The notes beneath the pieces are model-generated. The model was not told the DNA's origin. It did not search any database and was given only the letters and a program-made list of their open reading frames with translations. The position numbers and the translations under genes are program-made. From Pseudomonadota bacterium (GTDB lineage Bacteria > Desulfobacterota > Syntrophorhabdia > Syntrophorhabdales > Syntrophorhabdaceae): DNA of 64,000 nucleotides. How positions within the stretch are numbered: position 1 is the stretch's first letter; each line of letters opens with the position of its first letter. This document shows positions 15,993 to 52,046 of the stretch, piece after piece. The stretch is taken from NCBI GenBank assembly GCA_026388275.1, contig JAPLKB010000065.1, positions 1 through 64,000 on the forward strand, read 5' to 3'.

Positions 15993-16158
15993 TGAATGTT
16001 TAATGTTTAATTTTCAATAATTTTAAAGATTTACAATCAGTGTTTCTTAAATTGTCAACGCTAGTCTTGCCCTGCATTTTTTCCATATTAAACATTCAAC
16101 ATTAAACATATAAAATTGTCCCTATTAAGCATTTAACATTAAAAATTCAAAATTGCCT
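15993..16158. repeat. Three heptamer arrays in the exosortase-wecB spacer, one running into the wecB end
   Basis: ATT-spaced 7-base units occur at about 15993-16016 (reverse orientation), 16086-16116 and 16124-16158. The last reads ATTAAGC, ATTTAAC, ATTAAAA, ATTCAAA, ATTGCCT and contains the stop and final codons of wecB, so the protein's last residues AILNF are set by the repeat. Confidence 0.7.
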
Positions 16159-43907: not shown

Positions 43908-44270
43908 CTAAAATTCTTCCTTTCTTAATTTTTTAATCTCAAGATTTTAAATTGTTCCGGTTGCAAAAAGTATTATCCATGATGATTTAATAGTTTGAGA
44001 TCGGATTAAGCCTTTGTATTTATTGGCTTAAGGTAGAATACACTTATTGCTGTAGAATGTTTAATATGGTATTGGGAACCATGAATAATATTCATCGGTT
44101 TATTCATCATTAAGCATTAACAATTAAACATTGATTTGGAGTTGCTCCTATCAAACCGGACACCCCTCTAATTTATCTAATGCTCTCCTGTGCTTCCTCG
44201 GTGATTTCATTTTACAAATCCCTGCATGAAGAGTCCTTTTGATATATAAAAAACAGCGTTTCTCATGTAA
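43908..44270. other. Intergenic region of about 360 bases with a heptamer array
   Basis: It contains an array at 44109-44136 (ATTAAGC, ATTAACA, ATTAAAC, ATTGATT). The remainder is A+T-rich and without a supported gene. A weak hairpin with a following T-run at the 3' end of the dehydrogenase gene, about 44246-44290 on the minus strand, could terminate transcription before rmlB. Confidence 0.45.
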
Positions 44271-44290
44271 TTATGCGTGAAAAATGCAGC
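44246..44290 (-). terminator. Possible intrinsic terminator after the UDP-sugar dehydrogenase gene
   Basis: On the minus strand CAGC...GCTG closes an interrupted stem (TTTTTCA with TGAGAAA) and is followed by TTTTTT. The stem includes the last codons of the gene. The pairing is imperfect, so support is weak. Confidence 0.35.
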
Positions 44291-45593
44291 TGTTTTTTGA
44301 TTTTACAATGTTGCGTGTATCCACTACCGGTATTCCAAATGACTTGAAATCAATTACACGGTACTCGTCATGGGGTGTGGCTATAAGAATAAGGTCATAA
44401 TCATCGCTGATAGGAACTGATTTTCTATTGGCAAACTGAGGAAATTCCCTGACATGTTTGATAACAGGCACATATGGATCATTAAAATCTACTTTTGCTC
44501 CAAGCTCTTCTAATTTCTCTATAAGATGATATGAAGGTGACTCTCTGTCATCATCCACATTGCCTTTGTAGGCAAGACCGAGAAGAAGAACTTTTGAACC
44601 TTTTACGGGTTTCCCAATATTATTGAGTACTTTTGTTACTTTGGAGACTACATAATCCGGCATGGCTGTATTTATCTCTCCGGCAAGTTCTATGAAACGG
44701 GTCGCGAAATCATATTGCCGCGCTTTCCATGTAAGATAAAAGGGGTCAATGGGTATACAATGGCCGCCGAGTCCCGGCCCGGGGTAAAATGCCTGGAAAC
44801 CAAAAGGCTTGGTTTTTGCTGCATCAATGACTTCCCATATATCAATATCCATTTTATCAAAGAGCATTTTCAGTTCGTTGACAAGTGCAATATTGACAGA
44901 CCGATATATATTTTCAAGGAGTTTTGTCGCCTCTGCAGCACGGGTCGAGGAGACAGGCACTGTCTTTAATATAATGGTGTCATAAAGAGCTTTTGCCACT
45001 TCAAGACATTTTTCTGTATAGCCACCTACCACTTTTGGGACAGTGCGAAGGCAGAAATCTTTGTTATTTGGGTCTTCTCTTTCCGGAGAGAATGCAAGGT
45101 GAAAATCTGTTCCTGCTTTGAGACCGGCCTTTTCAAGTATATCCTTCATATCGTCATCTGTTGTACCGGGGTAAGTAGTTGATTCAAGGATGATGCGCTG
45201 TCCTTTTTGAAGATATCCGGCAATGGCCCTGGTTGTGTTGAATACAAAGCTCATATCAGGTTCACGGTTTTTGTTAAGAGGGGTAGGAACACAGATAAGA
45301 ATACAATCCATTTTTTGAAGCAACGAGAAATCATTTGTTGCTTCAAAAAATTTTGAATGTTGAATGTTTGATGTTGAATTATTAAGAGATTTATCGAAAA
45401 GGGGAGAAACATCAATATGCTTGATATATCCTTTTCCTTCCCGGAGCATCCTTACTTTTTCAGTATCCACATCGAATCCTGTGACAGGGAACCCTGCCTT
45501 ACAGAATTCAATCACAAGAGGCAGGCCAACGTAACCGAGGCCGATAACGCCTATACGAGCTTGTTTGGTATTAATTTTCTCCAGTAGATCCAT
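44271..45593 (-). CDS. UDP-N-acetylhexosamine 6-dehydrogenase (WbpA/WecC family)
   Basis: The 440-residue nucleotide-sugar dehydrogenase has the NAD loop IGVIGLGYVGLPLVIEF (about 13-29), CVPTPLNKNREPD, ESTTYPGTTDD, FSPEREDPNN, the catalytic Cys in LGGHCIPIDPFYL and GLAYKGNVDDDRESPS. It oxidises C-6 of UDP-GlcNAc or UDP-ManNAc to the uronic acid. With two WecB genes present, UDP-ManNAcA is possible. Residues about 69-82 (LNNSTSNIQHSKF) come from a 7-base tandem DNA repeat inserted in a surface loop where relatives are shorter. An AAAAGGAG site precedes the ATG. Confidence 0.92.
   Translation of the reverse strand: MDLLEKINTKQARIGVIGLGYVGLPLVIEFCKAGFPVTGFDVDTEKVRMLREGKGYIKHIDVSPLFDKSLNNSTSNIQHSKFFEATNDFSLLQKMDCILICVPTPLNKNREPDMSFVFNTTRAIAGYLQKGQRIILESTTYPGTTDDDMKDILEKAGLKAGTDFHLAFSPEREDPNNKDFCLRTVPKVVGGYTEKCLEVAKALYDTIILKTVPVSSTRAAEATKLLENIYRSVNIALVNELKMLFDKMDIDIWEVIDAAKTKPFGFQAFYPGPGLGGHCIPIDPFYLTWKARQYDFATRFIELAGEINTAMPDYVVSKVTKVLNNIGKPVKGSKVLLLGLAYKGNVDDDRESPSYHLIEKLEELGAKVDFNDPYVPVIKHVREFPQFANRKSVPISDDYDLILIATPHDEYRVIDFKSFGIPVVDTRNIVKSKNSCIFHA
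45353..45380. repeat. In-frame heptamer array in the UDP-sugar dehydrogenase gene, TTGAATG word
   Basis: Units TTGAATG, TTGAATG, TTTGATG, TTGAATT run head to tail. The coding strand gives STSNIQHSK. It has the same word family as the intergenic arrays at 45613 and 46556. Confidence 0.85.
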
Positions 45594-45612
45594 AAAAACT
45601 CCTTTTCAATGC

Positions 45613-45647
45613 AATTTTTAATTTTTAATGTTTAATGTTGAATAACA
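45613..45647. repeat. Heptamer array upstream of the UDP-sugar dehydrogenase gene
   Basis: Five 7-base units (AATTTTT twice, AATGTTT, AATGTTG, AATAACA) lie 20 bases upstream of the start codon, just before its ribosome-binding site, so they fall in the 5' leader or promoter. Confidence 0.75.
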
Positions 45648-45740
45648 ACTATTAATAAGGCGATTTACTCAATATTTCATTTATATCAAAACTTCGTCGC
45701 GGCGAAATTGATAGTTAACTTAGCGTAATATCAACAGTAT

Positions 45741-46535
45741 TTACAGGCCTACCGTAGCGGTGGTCTCTTTGAGCTTTATTTCCACTGCATCCTTGATCGC
45801 GTTTGTTATGGTCTGAAGCTCCTGTCTGTCAGGCTCACTCCATTTGTTGAGACTAAGTTTGTTTATTTTTATTGTAATATTTTGCAGTGCCTCAAGCATT
45901 ATTTGCGCCTCAGGCTTCTTTTGCTTTTGCCTTTCCTCTTTGAGTTCTTCAGGGGAGAGGTTTTTGCGGCAATATTTCTGATACTGGCTTATCATGGAAC
46001 TTTCCTGTTTGCTTCGGGCAATTTCCACAAGGACCCTCTTTGGAACAGAGGGGTTATTACGGCATTCATCTCTGATCTGCTGAGGGAGGCGGTTGAGAGA
46101 TAATGTCTCGGATATGGTGGAAACGGCCTTACCAAGCATATTTGAAAGATCTTCCTGCTTATATGAGTGCTCCTTCATTATTCGGTCCATGGCCTCTGAT
46201 TCTTCAATAGGAGTTAAATCCTGCCTGAGGAGGTTTTCCACGAGCGCGATCTCTGCATAGTTGCCCTCAACAAAAATTGCAGGCAGTTCGGTGATACCAG
46301 CTTTCTGAGCGGCAAGACAGCGGCGTTCACCGGCAACAAGATAAAGGCTTTGATTACTGTCCTGGCGGAACAGGACGGGTTCCAGCACGCCATATTGCTT
46401 GACGGAAGCGGTAAGTTCATCAAGGGCCTGAGCATCCACATATTTTCGCGGCTGATCAGGATCGGAATTGAGAGATGCAATATGGATGGAGTACAACTTA
46501 CCTTTAACATAACCTGATTTACTTTTGGCTGTCAT
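45741..46535 (-). CDS. ParB/RepB-like protein, orphan copy 2
   Basis: The 264-residue protein has the ParB N-terminal boxes: LNSDPDQPRKYVD (near 22), VAGERRCLAAQKAG and LVENLLRQDLTPIEESEAM. A helix-turn-helix region follows, around YKQEDLSNMLGKAVSTISETLSL. The C-terminal part is charged (LKEERQKQKKPEAQ). No parA neighbour exists. Like copy 1 it has a G-rich ribosome-binding site (GGGGG-TTTT) and sits beside a heptamer array. A regulatory role in the polysaccharide region is possible but unproven. Confidence 0.87.
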   Translation of the reverse strand: MTAKSKSGYVKGKLYSIHIASLNSDPDQPRKYVDAQALDELTASVKQYGVLEPVLFRQDSNQSLYLVAGERRCLAAQKAGITELPAIFVEGNYAEIALVENLLRQDLTPIEESEAMDRIMKEHSYKQEDLSNMLGKAVSTISETLSLNRLPQQIRDECRNNPSVPKRVLVEIARSKQESSMISQYQKYCRKNLSPEELKEERQKQKKPEAQIMLEALQNITIKINKLSLNKWSEPDRQELQTITNAIKDAVEIKLKETTATVGL

Positions 46536-46555
46536 AAAACCCCCATATTAAAAGC

Positions 46556-46590
46556 AATGTTGAATGTTTAATGTTGAATGTTTAATGTTT
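46556..46590. repeat. Heptamer array upstream of ParB-like copy 2
   Basis: Five head-to-tail units (AATGTTG, AATGTTT, AATGTTG, AATGTTT, AATGTTT) follow AAAAGC. Read in reverse, the array therefore ends CAACATTGCTTTT, the same terminus as arrays at 14288, 17306 and 17424. Confidence 0.85.
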
Positions 46591-46798
46591 GTTCCCTGTG
46601 ACAAGGTGATTAATTTCATAAAATTTGTTGATTTTGTGATAGGCTACCGCCACAGCGATTTGTCTCGCAGGTCCAGGGTGTTGAAATGAATGAGTGTAGC
46701 AAGCAAATCCATGTTAGAAAAATAACTACATGTTCCTATATCTGTTTGAAATATTATCGGCAGCACCTAATTTACCTTAAGTCTTAGTCTGATGTAAA

Positions 46799-47230
46799 TT
46801 ACTCTTTTACTTTATAAATAGTGCTATGACTTTCGGTATCAGCACGATGGGCAGTAAGATCAGCAGCTACTCCATCAATCTTTTTTTCTACTCTGTTAAT
46901 TTCTTTTTTGAGAGATATTTCCAGTCCATCTATTTTAGCATCAAGTTTATCATGTACTCCGTCTATTTTTTTATCAAGTTTATCGTGCACTCCATCAATC
47001 TTTACATCGAGCTTGTTATATACACCATCAATCTTTACATCAAGTTCGTTATGTACTCCATCAATTTTTTTATTTAGGGTGTCTATTTTAAAATCTACAA
47101 ACTCAAACTTGTCGTTCATCTCTGCTCGCATTTGTTTTATCTCGTGATGTAGACCTGCATTACCCTCAAGCACCAGCTCAAACTTTTCTTTGATATCTTC
47201 CAAAAGTATTTCCAGATTATCTTTCTCCAT
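46799..47230 (-). CDS. Coiled-coil protein with tandem 11-residue repeats
   Basis: The 143-residue hydrophilic protein is predicted to be almost wholly helical. A KIDGVHDKLDA-type 11-residue unit recurs about five times (residues about 57-111), an 11-residue (hendecad) coiled-coil period rather than a heptad. The corresponding 33-bp DNA repeats are visible at about 46915-47070. The N-terminal part (EKFELVLEGNAGLHHEIKQM) occurs in many small bacterial coiled-coil proteins of unknown function. There is no signal peptide or membrane segment. The 263-base spacer upstream of it (46536-46798) shows only the heptamer array. Confidence 0.75.
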   Translation of the reverse strand: MEKDNLEILLEDIKEKFELVLEGNAGLHHEIKQMRAEMNDKFEFVDFKIDTLNKKIDGVHNELDVKIDGVYNKLDVKIDGVHDKLDKKIDGVHDKLDAKIDGLEISLKKEINRVEKKIDGVAADLTAHRADTESHSTIYKVKE

Positions 47231-47272
47231 TACTTACCCCCATAAAGAAATGTAACGACTAAAGATCATTGT

Positions 47273-48409
47273 TTATTCTTTAGCTCCGGCCTGACTGCTT
47301 GATGAGGTATACCATTCTATGGTTTTTCTCAAGCCTTCTCCGAAGCTTGTTTTTGTTCTGAAGTTGAATTCGTTGAATGCTCTCGTGGTATCAAGTATCC
47401 TTCTTGGTTGACCATCAGGTTTTGAAGTATTCCAGAGAACCTGACCTCTGAAATCCATAAGTTCAACAATGAGATCAACAAGGCTTCTGATGGAAATTTC
47501 AAAGCCTGCACCTATGTTGCAGGGTGCGCTGCTGTTGTATTTTTCTGTTGCCAGTATGATTGCTTCAGCGGCATCTTCAACATAGAAAAACTCCCTGGTT
47601 GCGTTGCCGGTACCCCAGATATCAACAATAGTGAATAGTGGATAGTGAATAGTGGATAGTGAATTGTTTGAGGCGGCTGGAACGGAAATACCATAGTGCT
47701 TGAGTACAGTAATAATTACATCTGGCGAAGAGTCTTTTTTGATTTCATAGATATGGCCATCAATATCAACCGGACCGTCTCCGTTCCAGATAAAATCTTT
47801 CCTGATTGAGTCATAAGAACCAGCAGAAAGGAGGTTGGCAAGGTAAAACTTGCGGATAAGTGCCGGAATCACATGAGATGATTTAAAGGTAAAGTTGTCA
47901 CCGGGGCCGTAAAGGTTGACCGGAAGCAGGAATATTGAGTTGAAACCATACTGCTGCCTGTATGCCTGAGACTGGACAAGCATCATTTTTTTGGCAAGGC
48001 CATAAGGGGCGTTTGTCTCTTCGGGATAACCGTTCCATATATCATCTTCTTTAAATGGTACAGGAGTGAATTTTGGATAGGCACATATGGTTCCAAGTGC
48101 AACAAATTTATCAATTTTATGGAGATATCCTTCGTGGAGAAGCTGTATTCCCATCATGGCGTTTTCATAGAAAAGCGATGCCGGATTTTCTTGATTAAAT
48201 CCTATGCCTCCTACTTTTGCTGCAAGATGAATGACAATATCAGGATTTGTTTCAATATACAGACGGCGCACATCGTTGATGTCAACCAGATTGTATTCGG
48301 GCAGATCAGCCACAATAATGTTTTTGTAGCCCTTCTCCTTCATTTGATGAATCAGGTGGGTTCCTAAGAAACCTTTGCCACCGGTTATCGTGATTTTTTT
48401 ATTAAACAG
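47273..48409 (-). CDS. fcl: GDP-L-fucose synthase
   Basis: This SDR epimerase/reductase makes GDP-L-fucose from the Gmd product. It has [11 protein letters not shown] (NAD loop), HLAAKVGGI, the YGLAKKMM catalytic Tyr/Lys motif and [17 protein letters not shown]. The common start at 48343 would cut off the NAD loop. The frame extends upstream to a CTG at 48407-48409 with an AGGAG site 8 bases before it, giving [11 protein letters not shown], so a CTG start is likely, or an upstream frameshift. It has the long insertion of Bacteroides-type Fcl proteins. Within it, residues about 250-261 ([11 protein letters not shown]) are encoded by a 7-base tandem repeat. Confidence 0.9.
47628..47662. repeat. 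In-frame heptamer array inside fcl, ATAGTGA/ATAGTGG words
   Basis: Five alternating units ATAGTGA and ATAGTGG run without interruption. On the coding strand they give TIHYPLFTI just before the conserved WGTG. It is the same word family as the array at 1366-1395. Confidence 0.9.
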
Positions 48410-48427
48410 TGTTGAATCTCCTATTTT

Positions 48428-48455
48428 GATGGAAGATGGACGATGGAAGATGGAC
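48428..48455. repeat. Heptamer array between four-helix-bundle gene and fcl, GATGGAA/GATGGAC words
   Basis: Four alternating exact units lie 29 bases beyond the stop of the four-helix-bundle gene and just before the fcl ribosome-binding site. Related words in opposite orientation flank the other side of that gene at about 48864-48925. Confidence 0.85.
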
Positions 48456-48484
48456 GAGATAATTCTATGGGCATTACAAATTTA

Positions 48485-48880
48485 TTATTTGCAAAAATTG
48501 TCAACTTTTTTCTCCATCACGTTAAGCATAGCAAAAATATGTTCATAGGCTTCGTCGAGCTTTCCGAACAATTCCCCATTTATATAGTTGCATTTGCAAG
48601 CAAATTCCAGCCATGTCTGTGTCTCTGATGCTTCTTGAGATGCATCGGTCAGTTTATTCAGAAAAACAGCTTTGTAACGTCTTTTGCGCCATCCTTCTGA
48701 TAAATTTGAACAGACTGATCTTGATGATCTTCGAATCTGGTCTGTTAAGGAATATGTCTCATCCTTAGGGAAACTTTTTGATATTTCAAATATTAGCATT
48801 GCAGTATCAAATGCCTTTTTATATACATCCAAATCTCTTACACTGTTTATTCTACTTGTAACTTTTTTGTCCATCGTCAT
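48485..48880 (-). CDS. Four-helix-bundle protein (S23/23S-IVS family, Avd-like fold)
   Basis: The 131-residue protein has the family pattern. A SVRDLDVYKKAFDTAMLIFE helix is followed by SFPKDETYSLTDQIRRSSRSV, SNLSEGWRKR, LTDASQEASETQTWLEFA and a final long helix (EAYEHIFAMLNVMEKK). Members of this family are encoded in 23S rRNA intervening sequences and as stand-alone genes. The accessory protein Avd of diversity-generating retroelements shares the fold and binds nucleic acid. No rRNA is present here. The gene splits gmd from fcl, which normally adjoin, and is bracketed by inverted 7-base repeats. Confidence 0.88.
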   Translation of the reverse strand: MTMDKKVTSRINSVRDLDVYKKAFDTAMLIFEISKSFPKDETYSLTDQIRRSSRSVCSNLSEGWRKRRYKAVFLNKLTDASQEASETQTWLEFACKCNYINGELFGKLDEAYEHIFAMLNVMEKKVDNFCK

Positions 48881-48925
48881 AGCCTGTGTTGGCAGGCGAT
48901 CTTCCCTCGCCTATCGTCTATCGTT
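48864..48925. repeat. Short heptamer words at the 5' side of the four-helix-bundle gene
   Basis: On the coding (minus) strand ACGATAG occurs twice in tandem, followed by GCGAGGG, and the gene's own start region contains ACGATGG. These are the inverse of the CCATCGT words on its 3' side (48428-48455). The array is short, so support is moderate. Confidence 0.5.
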
Positions 48926-48928
48926 TAC

Positions 48929-50071
48929 TTAATGTTCCCGTATCTGCTCATATACAGAAAAGTTATGGTTTGTATAACCAAAACCCTTACGCTTTGATGC
49001 TTCAAGACCTTCACGTGCAGAAGTTAGTCCTACCATTTGTACGTCGCAGTCTATCATGATTTTTACAAGTTCATCAAAGGTAACTCTGGGCTCCCAACCA
49101 AGCTTTTCTTTTGCCTTTGATATATCTGCCTGCAAGGCCTCTACTTCTGTAGGTCTGAAGTAACGTGGATCAACGCGGACAAGAATAGTTCCAGGGGTTA
49201 CATGTTCCCATGTGGATGATGCTACAATTCCAACCTCATCCTGGCCTTCTCCTTTCCAGTCAAGAATAATACCCATATAAGAAAAGGCTTTATCAACAAA
49301 CTCTCTTACAGAGTAACTTTTTCCTGTGCCTACAACATAATCATCAGGTTTTTCCTGCTGGAGCATAAGCCACATCATTTCAACGTATTCAGGGGCAAAT
49401 CCCCAATCCCGTTTTGAATTCATGTTCCCGAGATAAAGTGTCTTCTGATTGCCGGTAAGTATATTTGCTACAGCTCTTGTAATCTTGCGAGTTACAAAGG
49501 TTTCGCCTCTTCGTGGTGACTCGTGATTGAAAAGAATACCGTTACAGGCAAAGAGATTATATCCCTCTCGGTAATTTATGGTCATCCAGTATGAATATAT
49601 TTTTGCGGCTGCATAAGGGCTTCTCGGATAGAATGGACTTTTTTCATTTTGCGGAGGAGGTGTGCCGCCGAATAACTCTGATGAGGATGCCTGATAGTAT
49701 TTCGTAGTGATGCCACTTCTGCGGATGGCTTCAAGGAGTCTTGTTGTCCCCAGCGCAGTCGAATCTCCTGTATATTCTGGCATATCAAAACTTACGCGCA
49801 CGTGACTCTGAGCTGCAAGATGATACACTTCATCGGGCTGAATGTTGTAGATAATATGGCCGAGTTGACCACCGTCGGAAAGATCGCCGTAATGAAGGAA
49901 GAGTCGTGCACCTGGCTGATGGGGGTCAGCATAAATATGATCTATCCTGCCGGTATTGAAAGTGCTTGCTCTCCTTATAATACCATGAACTTCATAACCC
50001 TTGGAAAGAAGAAATTCTGCCAGATATGATCCATCCTGTCCGGTAATTCCTGTTATTAGTGCTTTTTTCAT
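48929..50071 (-). CDS. gmd: GDP-mannose 4,6-dehydratase
   Basis: This is a 380-residue SDR enzyme. [19 protein letters not shown] is the diagnostic GMD N-terminus. [17 protein letters not shown], the SSSELFGG serine motif, [10 protein letters not shown] with catalytic Tyr/Lys, [17 protein letters not shown] and [15 protein letters not shown] complete the match. It forms GDP-4-keto-6-deoxymannose, which Fcl (47273-48409) converts to GDP-L-fucose. An AAGGG site precedes the ATG. The four-helix-bundle gene lies between the two pathway genes. Confidence 0.96.
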
Positions 50072-50138
50072 ATTGGACCCTTATATATATTGATTTTAAA
50101 TAAATAAAAGCAGTTTTTAACGTTTAGTAAATAACAAT

Positions 50139-50180
50139 ATCCCGGACCATTTACGTGTATATGTTCAAACAGTCCGGGAT
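50139..50180. repeat. Inverted repeat between galE and gmd
   Basis: ATCCCGGAC (50139-50147) pairs exactly with GTCCGGGAT (50172-50180) around a 24-base loop. On the minus strand it follows galE and is succeeded by ATTGTTATTT, so it might act as a weak terminator or RNA-stabilising structure ahead of gmd. Confidence 0.5.
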
Positions 50181-50237
50181 GATATTTTCAGTTGAACTCA
50201 AGGCTCAGAAAAATTGCCTAATTAAACTTGTCAGATG

Positions 50238-51215
<978 letters not shown>

Positions 51216-51395
51216 TTATTATATGGACTAACCTGCGGCATACGGGCAGGGTGTTAAAGTTAAAAACAAAAAGTTTTTTGCATCAAGATAACGAGAATTT
51301 TCAATAGAAATTAAAACGATGATTCAGCGTTGTTGCATCAAGCTACCTTGTAAAAAACAATCTCCAAAATTCCTTCTTCATGCTCTAAATGTTAT

Positions 51396-52046
51396 TTACG
51401 GGGGTGTCAAACCGTTTTGAATAGCAAATCTTACAAGTCCGGGTAGATCATTAATATTCAGCTTTTCCATTATTCGATAACGATATGTGTTAACAGTTCT
51501 TATAGATATACACAAAATAGCGGCAATATCTGCGCTTGTTTTTCCTTCTACTACGAGTTGCAGCACTTCTTTTTCACGTATGCTGAGATCAAAGAGCGGG
51601 CTATTTTGTGTCATGGAGTTTGCCTTATTAATATAATCTTCCACAAGCTTTTCGGATATCCTTTTTGACAGATATCTATGCCCGCTGTTGACAGCACATA
51701 TTGCGTTCATAACATCCCTGCTGACATATTCAGCCAATATGCAGCCAGCGACACCGACACGCAATAAACTTATGACCTCTTCATTGGTTGTTTGCATAGC
51801 TATAATGATGATTTGAATCGTAGGACAATTCTTTCGAATCGCCCTAATGGTTTCTATCCCGCTTCTGAACTGTCCACTGATATTTAAAATAACAACATCA
51901 GGACAATGTTCTGCCAATTGCTGCAATATATCATTCCCGTGTGTAGAATTGCCTACCACAATTAAACCTTCTTTGCTTTCCAAAAGGATCTTCATGCCAT
52001 CACGAATGATTGTACAGTCATCTATAAGGTAGACTTTGATGTCCAT
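51396..52046 (-). CDS. NarL/LuxR-type regulator with a degenerate receiver domain
   Basis: The protein has 216 residues. The receiver (1-120) keeps the acidic pair Asp9-Asp10, but the phospho-acceptor position is Asn55 (CPDVVILNISGQ instead of LLDISMP). The conserved Ser/Thr is Ala84 and the conserved Lys is Ala105. It is therefore unlikely to be switched by phosphorylation. The LuxR helix-turn-helix (about 150-210) is intact: LSIREKEVLQLVVEGKTSADIA and SIRTVNTYRYRIMEKLNI. Its C-terminus is nearly the same as that of the regulator at 52225-52902, suggesting duplication and shared DNA targets. The 188-base spacer to galE has no gene. Confidence 0.88.
   Translation of the reverse strand: MDIKVYLIDDCTIIRDGMKILLESKEGLIVVGNSTHGNDILQQLAEHCPDVVILNISGQFRSGIETIRAIRKNCPTIQIIIIAMQTTNEEVISLLRVGVAGCILAEYVSRDVMNAICAVNSGHRYLSKRISEKLVEDYINKANSMTQNSPLFDLSIREKEVLQLVVEGKTSADIAAILCISIRTVNTYRYRIMEKLNINDLPGLVRFAIQNGLTPP

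Follow-up and report, generated by a model that had tools for sequence, protein, structure and literature searches.

What is a small four-helix-bundle gene doing between gmd and fcl, and why do short repeated words stand on either side of it in inverted sense? The arrangement occurs in a 64,000-nucleotide stretch of DNA (herein the window; contig JAPLKB010000065.1) from a bacterium of the family Syntrophorhabdaceae, in which a first-pass annotation, made from the letters alone, had proposed that gene and repeats form a small mobile unit.

The S23 gene and its flanks in the gmd–fcl operon

The 131-residue S23/Avd-like gene placed at this junction by the annotation is borne out by the open reading frames (ORFs) and by a PF05635 match of 113 bits (cut-off 33.8; hmmscan), which makes its product a member of that family. 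The AlphaFold2 model of the protein (pLDDT 93.8) resembles the solved S23 structures 2GSC and 2RLD, entries with five chains in each, at TM scores normalized by target of 0.81 to 0.93. The next matches are Avd alone (4DWL) and Avd in complex with the reverse transcriptase of a diversity-generating retroelement (DGR; 8UB7, 8UBE), at 0.77 to 0.90 and ∼10% identity; the proposal of a fold common to Avd thus holds. No catalytic domain was seen in S23.

The three genes run on the minus strand in the order gmd, S23, fcl (Table 1), the true start of fcl lying slightly upstream of its ORF start at 48343. The 5′ array begins directly after the gmd stop codon, and an ACGATGG word overlaps the S23 start codon. 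The 3′ array (GATGGAAGATGGACGATGGAAGATGGACGA on the plus strand) reads TCCATCT/TCCATCG on the coding strand and comprises two 14-bp periods, that is, four heptamers. As annotated, heptamer words are found on both sides in inverted sense. The best inverted match across the flanks, GATAGACGATAGGCGAGGGAAGAT/ATCTTCCATCGTCCATCTTCCATC, has a score of 23, which is reached by 3% of 1,368 controls of the same geometry from the window and its own genome (p ∼0.03), and the inverted relation of this copy, taken alone, is marginal. The window copy is a decayed example of the unit described in the following sections.

Table 1. Positions of the features at and around the S23 locus, numbered from the first letter of the window
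Feature	Position	Strand	Evidence
S23/IVP (four-helix-bundle) gene, 131 aa, PF05635	48485..48880	-	hmmscan, AlphaFold2 model
gmd, operon neighbor upstream of S23	48929..50071	-	ORF, homologous junctions in relatives
fcl, operon neighbor downstream of S23	47273..48343	-	ORF, tblastn, protein alignment
3′ array, C-rich on coding strand	48428..48457	-	TRF score 60, inverted match to 5′ side
5′ array, coding strand ACGATAGACGATAGGCGAGGGAAGAT	about 48899-48928	-	sequence, inverted match score 23
Short palindrome GCCTGTGTTGGCAGGC, between 5′ array and S23 start codon	48882..48897		sequence
AATAGTGAATAGTGG array inside fcl, in frame, 13 residues coded on - strand	47627..47664	+	TRF
Gene-less inverted pair of heptamer arrays	15995..16154		inverted-arm detector, TRF

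Seven period-7 arrays occur in the window, where first-order Markov shuffles predict 0.02, and no arrays of periods 4 to 6 or 8 to 13 were found there at a stricter threshold. The word family of the array inside fcl also flanks other S23 genes of the same genome (L001, L002, L003, L006), and copies of it are dispersed in relatives. A known RNA family at the locus was ruled out, with no Rfam match in window positions 44000 to 52000, and a phage origin was set aside after no match was found among 50,697 phage records.

Several other repeats were observed in the window. An in-frame heptamer array lies in a UDP-sugar dehydrogenase ORF (45349 to 45379; SNIQHSKF), and a ParB-like gene (45741 to 46535) is bracketed by AATGTTT arrays (45613 to 45643 and 46556 to 46590); ParB paralogs stand directly downstream of four S23 units in the same genome (L001, L002, L003, L006). 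A coiled-coil ORF (46799 to 47230) contains a 33-bp tandem repeat of 4.4 copies (46925 to 47069), which codes for an 11-residue repeat like DKKIDGVHDKL.

Inverted word arrays around S23 genes across phyla

Eighty loci with close S23 relatives were collected from public genomes, selected by protein similarity only. Within 200 bp of these 80 genes the density of arrays per 10 kb is 5.8 for period 7, 11.2 for period 8, and 2.2 for period 9, and further out it is 0.2 to 0.9, 0.2 to 0.7, and 0 to 0.7, respectively; for periods 5, 6, 10, and 11 it is near zero. Arrays of short-period inverted words are thus enriched beside S23 genes across phyla, as the annotation had asked. Its emphasis on period 7 was too narrow: that period is enriched, but period 8 is as common and period 9 also occurs.

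Inverted flanks were scored by comparing the 200 bp upstream of a gene with the reverse complement of the 200 bp downstream, a score of at least 28 counting as a pass. Among 73 S23 loci from many phyla 74% pass, compared with 0 of 395 offset controls from the same loci, 10% of partners swapped in from other loci, 3% of S23 flanks compared in direct sense, and 2.4% of 125 non-S23 genes from these loci. A second set, the S23 genes of relatives of the window genome (which also carry a more distant S23 subfamily), gives 68% of 50 against 1.5% of 136 controls. Finished cyanobacterial plasmids show inverted flanks in six of eight cases, which excludes assembly error as their cause. Clear inverted flanks are missing from roughly one quarter to one third of S23 genes.

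The arrays have a polarity on the coding strand, with G prevailing in the 5′ array and C in the 3′ array: upstream of S23 the GC skew is positive in 71 of 73 loci, and downstream it is negative in 64 of 73. Units such as (GGTGACAA)n-gene-(TTGTCACC)n and GAGCGTG...CACGCTC exemplify this anatomy. Several S23 genes may be found in one genome, with a word and period specific to each gene. Palindromes of the GCTTAGCGAAGC type were observed within arrays beside S23 genes of unrelated phyla (L038, L040, L043, L023), and on cyanobacterial plasmids of three different hosts an S23 gene stands directly before a tyrosine recombinase gene (L330, L331, L336).

Direction is similarly constrained; 88 units have two neighbors of one common orientation, and 84 of these units share it. 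The RNA duplex calculated for own flank pairs is stronger than that of controls (median −105 kcal/mol against −79 to −82 kcal/mol), but in only 26% of loci is it stronger than the 5% tail of controls. This co-orientation, and the better pairing of a unit's own 5′ and 3′ flanks than of swapped ones, would suit a unit that is real but not self-moving, whose inverted arrays do no more than fold into an RNA stem, either insulating the S23 mRNA or allowing RNase III to excise it from the operon message, with spread by horizontal transfer and homologous recombination. The intervening sequence (IVS) of rRNA works in this way (PMC4990558), and a Chryseobacterium locus (see below) is mostly vertical, with losses. 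We nevertheless regard this explanation as unlikely; it leaves unaccounted for the tens to hundreds of dispersed gene-less arrays of the same words, the internally deleted copies, and the arrays in coding sequences.

Protein and word also vary together. Over 2,316 cross-phylum pairs, with phyla assigned from record titles, S23 protein similarity correlates with flank-word similarity (rho 0.24), a value reached in 0 of 500 permutations (p 0.002). Among the best word partners of the window unit are the S23 loci most closely related to it, which come from Planctomycetota, Desulfobacterota, Omnitrophota, and Neomarinimicrobiota. Such co-variation is expected from transfer as a unit or from recognition of the word by the S23 protein. 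It would also fit an S23 that regulates, for instance, translation or mRNA stability by binding its word, with the dispersed arrays as selected operator sites. Arrays do stand between stop codons and ribosome-binding sites, and MacGregor (2015) proposed a regulatory role for TAACTGA repeats and a repeat-binding protein as perhaps the mobile element (PMC4679880). Regulation of this kind is nonetheless highly improbable as the explanation, given how quickly site, word, and gene change from genus to genus, the presence in one genome of several S23 genes with a word and period each, and the internally deleted copies.

Dispersed arrays, variable junctions, and array turnover

Matches to AGTGAATAG, with overlapping matches within one array counted separately, number 87 in the window's own genome, 197 in G016, and 133 in G007; the reversed control gives none in the own genome and at most one in any of the three. 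At 9 of 20 inspected places (2 of the 20 picked because a pair was already suspected) there are inverted pairs with inner edges ∼55 to 185 bp apart and no intact S23. At L191 and L193 the S23 gene has an internal deletion, and at L200 a terminal remnant of it is left. Neighboring array pairs in G001 and G009 have the order seen at S23 genes (+/−) in six cases and the same sense in two; the −/+ order is never found. A second small palindrome, GTACGGTTTAATCCCGCTTTATGCGGGACATAG, was also seen nested in heptamer arrays and dispersed (L003, 1365 to 1450; L191, 620 to 660; L200; L202).

Across 25 genomes of the family the number of S23 genes correlates with the number of matches to two words (rho 0.81), a result favored by the origin of both words in S23-rich genomes; neither word has a match in the five S23-less family members. 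Sampling by period alone yields 13 period-7 arrays in 699 kb of S23-bearing genomes vs. 1 in 529 kb of S23-less genomes, and a stricter detector of paired inverted arms finds very few elements in these samples. The annotation had held that arrays in relatives devoid of any S23 gene would speak against it. The counterevidence of this kind is weak: the S23-less family members lack both words and the S23-less sample has its single period-7 array, but outside the family the S23-less G025 and G039 have a few arrays, two of them perfect ones in one genome.

The junctions themselves are variably filled. In the same family, five distinct S23 genes, each with a different inverted word, occupy gmd–fcl junctions (in the window, G005, G006, G007, and G017, the last with a shortened S23), always directly after the gmd stop and in the operon direction. 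G019 has a C-terminal remnant of S23 at this junction, and in G016 and G008 it is empty. These empty junctions support the annotation's premise that gmd and fcl normally adjoin, and the comparison of relatives that it suggested thus reveals both empty and differently filled sites. Empty sites that match occupied junctions are mostly without an array. In the colinear stretches G008:C8 and G017:C54 (∼75 to 94% identity), an S23 unit with CGTAAGG words stands in G017 at a site where G008 has no unit; G017 also has three gene-less inverted-array insertions of ∼120 to 190 bp that are absent from G008, and at one junction the two genomes hold different S23 genes with different words. No clean target-site duplication of the S23 unit was found in the G008/G017 pairs, at this level of identity, or at paralogous gene ends in G016. 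A different inverted-repeat insertion, CGCCCGTGTCGGG...CCCCGACACGGGCG, also absent from G008, lies at G017:C54:67359-67582.

Beyond the family, a Nostoc S23 gene is 99.7% identical between two genomes whose flanks are only 92 to 96% identical, and the other loci compared at this junction, a few of them truncated, have no S23 match in the DNA covered. In Chryseobacterium, a genus-wide study of empty sites shows a unit that is mostly vertical and repeatedly lost, with the left array staying behind. The idea that gene and repeats move together is supported by presence and absence, multi-copy dispersal, internally deleted copies, and protein-word co-variation across phyla, from which we infer active movement. 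The annotation's other idea, that the protein takes part in placing or maintaining the repeats, is conjectural.

Arrays also change in place. A Nostoc element of 87 to 222 bp with ends TACCAATT/AATTGGTA, a TGA target duplication, and clean empty sites in relatives (L337 to L366, e.g., L355) is an ordinary-looking MITE that bears a heptamer array at one end. At one site its array word varies by strain (AAGAATT, AAAAATT, CGCAATT, CAAAATT), the remainder being well conserved. The same loops of fcl and gmd likewise carry different in-frame arrays in different genera. Since the orthologous Nostoc array and these loop arrays differ, array words are rewritable in place; different words at one junction therefore need not mean separate insertions, but different S23 genes do. 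Nor are heptamer arrays limited to S23 units, because the Nostoc TGA element carries one. In G016 the loop of fcl that holds the window array contains a different peptide encoded by heptamers, NVEHRTLNVEHS, and one loop of gmd holds array-like insertions that differ between G008 and G017.

Arrays without S23 (the Nostoc element and those of G039), together with the change of word and copy number in place within that element, would be expected if arrays came first, via slippage and other small elements, and S23 genes merely inserted or persisted in repeat-rich spots. This order of events seems quite improbable in view of the inverted pairing and fixed polarity at S23 genes, the lack of any −/+ pair among those of the two genomes above, the mostly array-free empty sites, and the co-variation of protein and word across phyla.

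Known systems and the proposed explanation

In REP/RAYT systems a small gene stands between inverted copies of a repeat, further copies of which are scattered without it; protein and repeat vary together, and the REP sequences are thought to be moved in trans by the RAYT. S23 genes similarly lie between inverted copies of a word that is also dispersed gene-less and that co-varies with the protein, but S23 is a four-helix bundle rather than an HUH/Y1 protein; a Y1 transposase as obligate partner was rejected, the window's own genome having no PF01797 match. S23 has the fold of the Avd of DGRs, but only ∼10% identity to it, and a reverse transcriptase as obligate partner was rejected for G016 and G009, which are rich in S23 genes and arrays and have no RVT_1 match (PF00078 profile).

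In the 23S rRNA IVS an S23 ORF lies within a stem of complementary ends, which RNase III cuts; in Coxiella burnetii the terminal stem measures 28 bp and GACAGAT heptamers precede the ORF, and the authors who described it mention a proposal that such ORFs encode a mobility component (PMC4990558). The units described here share with this IVS a single S23 ORF, complementary ends that could form a stem (present family-wide, weak in the window copy), the transcribed direction, and a sporadic distribution. They differ in standing between protein genes (gmd and fcl in the window, not within a 23S rRNA gene), in ends made of tandem-word arrays, and in their many units and many gene-less copies per genome. 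We class them as a kind of IVS outside rRNA, with word-array ends. Like the STRR of cyanobacteria and the TAACTGA heptamers (PMC4679880), they involve dispersed 7-bp tandem words (as in the seven arrays of the window and the AGTGAATAG matches of its genome) that are intergenic and in some cases within reading frames; the STRR-like words GGCAGGG, TTATCAG, and TAACTGG were found beside S23 genes here. Unlike STRR, which the literature found ties to no gene, these words flank S23 genes in inverted pairs. Our literature search, with subscription papers and preprints outside its range, returned a single published link between S23 and heptamers, that of the Coxiella IVS paper, which does not generalize it.

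We think that the S23 unit is probably an IVS-like, operon-riding mobile element with inverted word-array ends, for which S23, with its Avd fold, acts as the trans factor. Its anatomy and distribution support this reading well; its mechanism may be pictured as follows. The unit, an S23 gene between inverted arrays of 7- to 9-bp words (G-rich 5′, C-rich 3′), would insert between co-transcribed genes, mostly along the direction of transcription, and S23 would be expressed by read-through from the operon. The two arrays could pair in RNA and form a stem closing the S23 gene, as in the 23S rRNA IVS. Together, IVS anatomy and Avd fold suggest that S23 is a word-recognizing nucleic-acid-binding bundle acting in trans: the protein, Avd-like and with relatives that crystallize with five chains, may bind the word of its own unit, as RNA or as single-stranded DNA, and, with host enzymes, promote the copying or insertion of whatever carries this word at its ends. 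Copies that lack the gene or have an internal deletion would then be moved in trans, as is thought for REP by RAYT. As neither RVT_1 nor a Y1 transposase is constantly present, catalysis would have to be host-derived.

More tentatively, S23 units might be a separate class of prokaryotic mobile element, one without a nuclease, recombinase, or reverse transcriptase of its own and with renewable inverted word-array ends recognized by S23, such that the rRNA IVS and the STRR/heptamer repeats would both be its products; we hold this to be possible rather than probable. The very widespread S23/IVP proteins and the heptamer repeats, which occur in cyanobacteria and in many uncultivated bacteria, are two long-standing orphans that appear to be one system. 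If they are, each S23 is expected to bind the word of its unit, and a word to spread only in the presence, current or recent, of the matching S23. In-frame repeat peptides of metabolic enzymes, TIHYPLFTI for example, would be explained as well.
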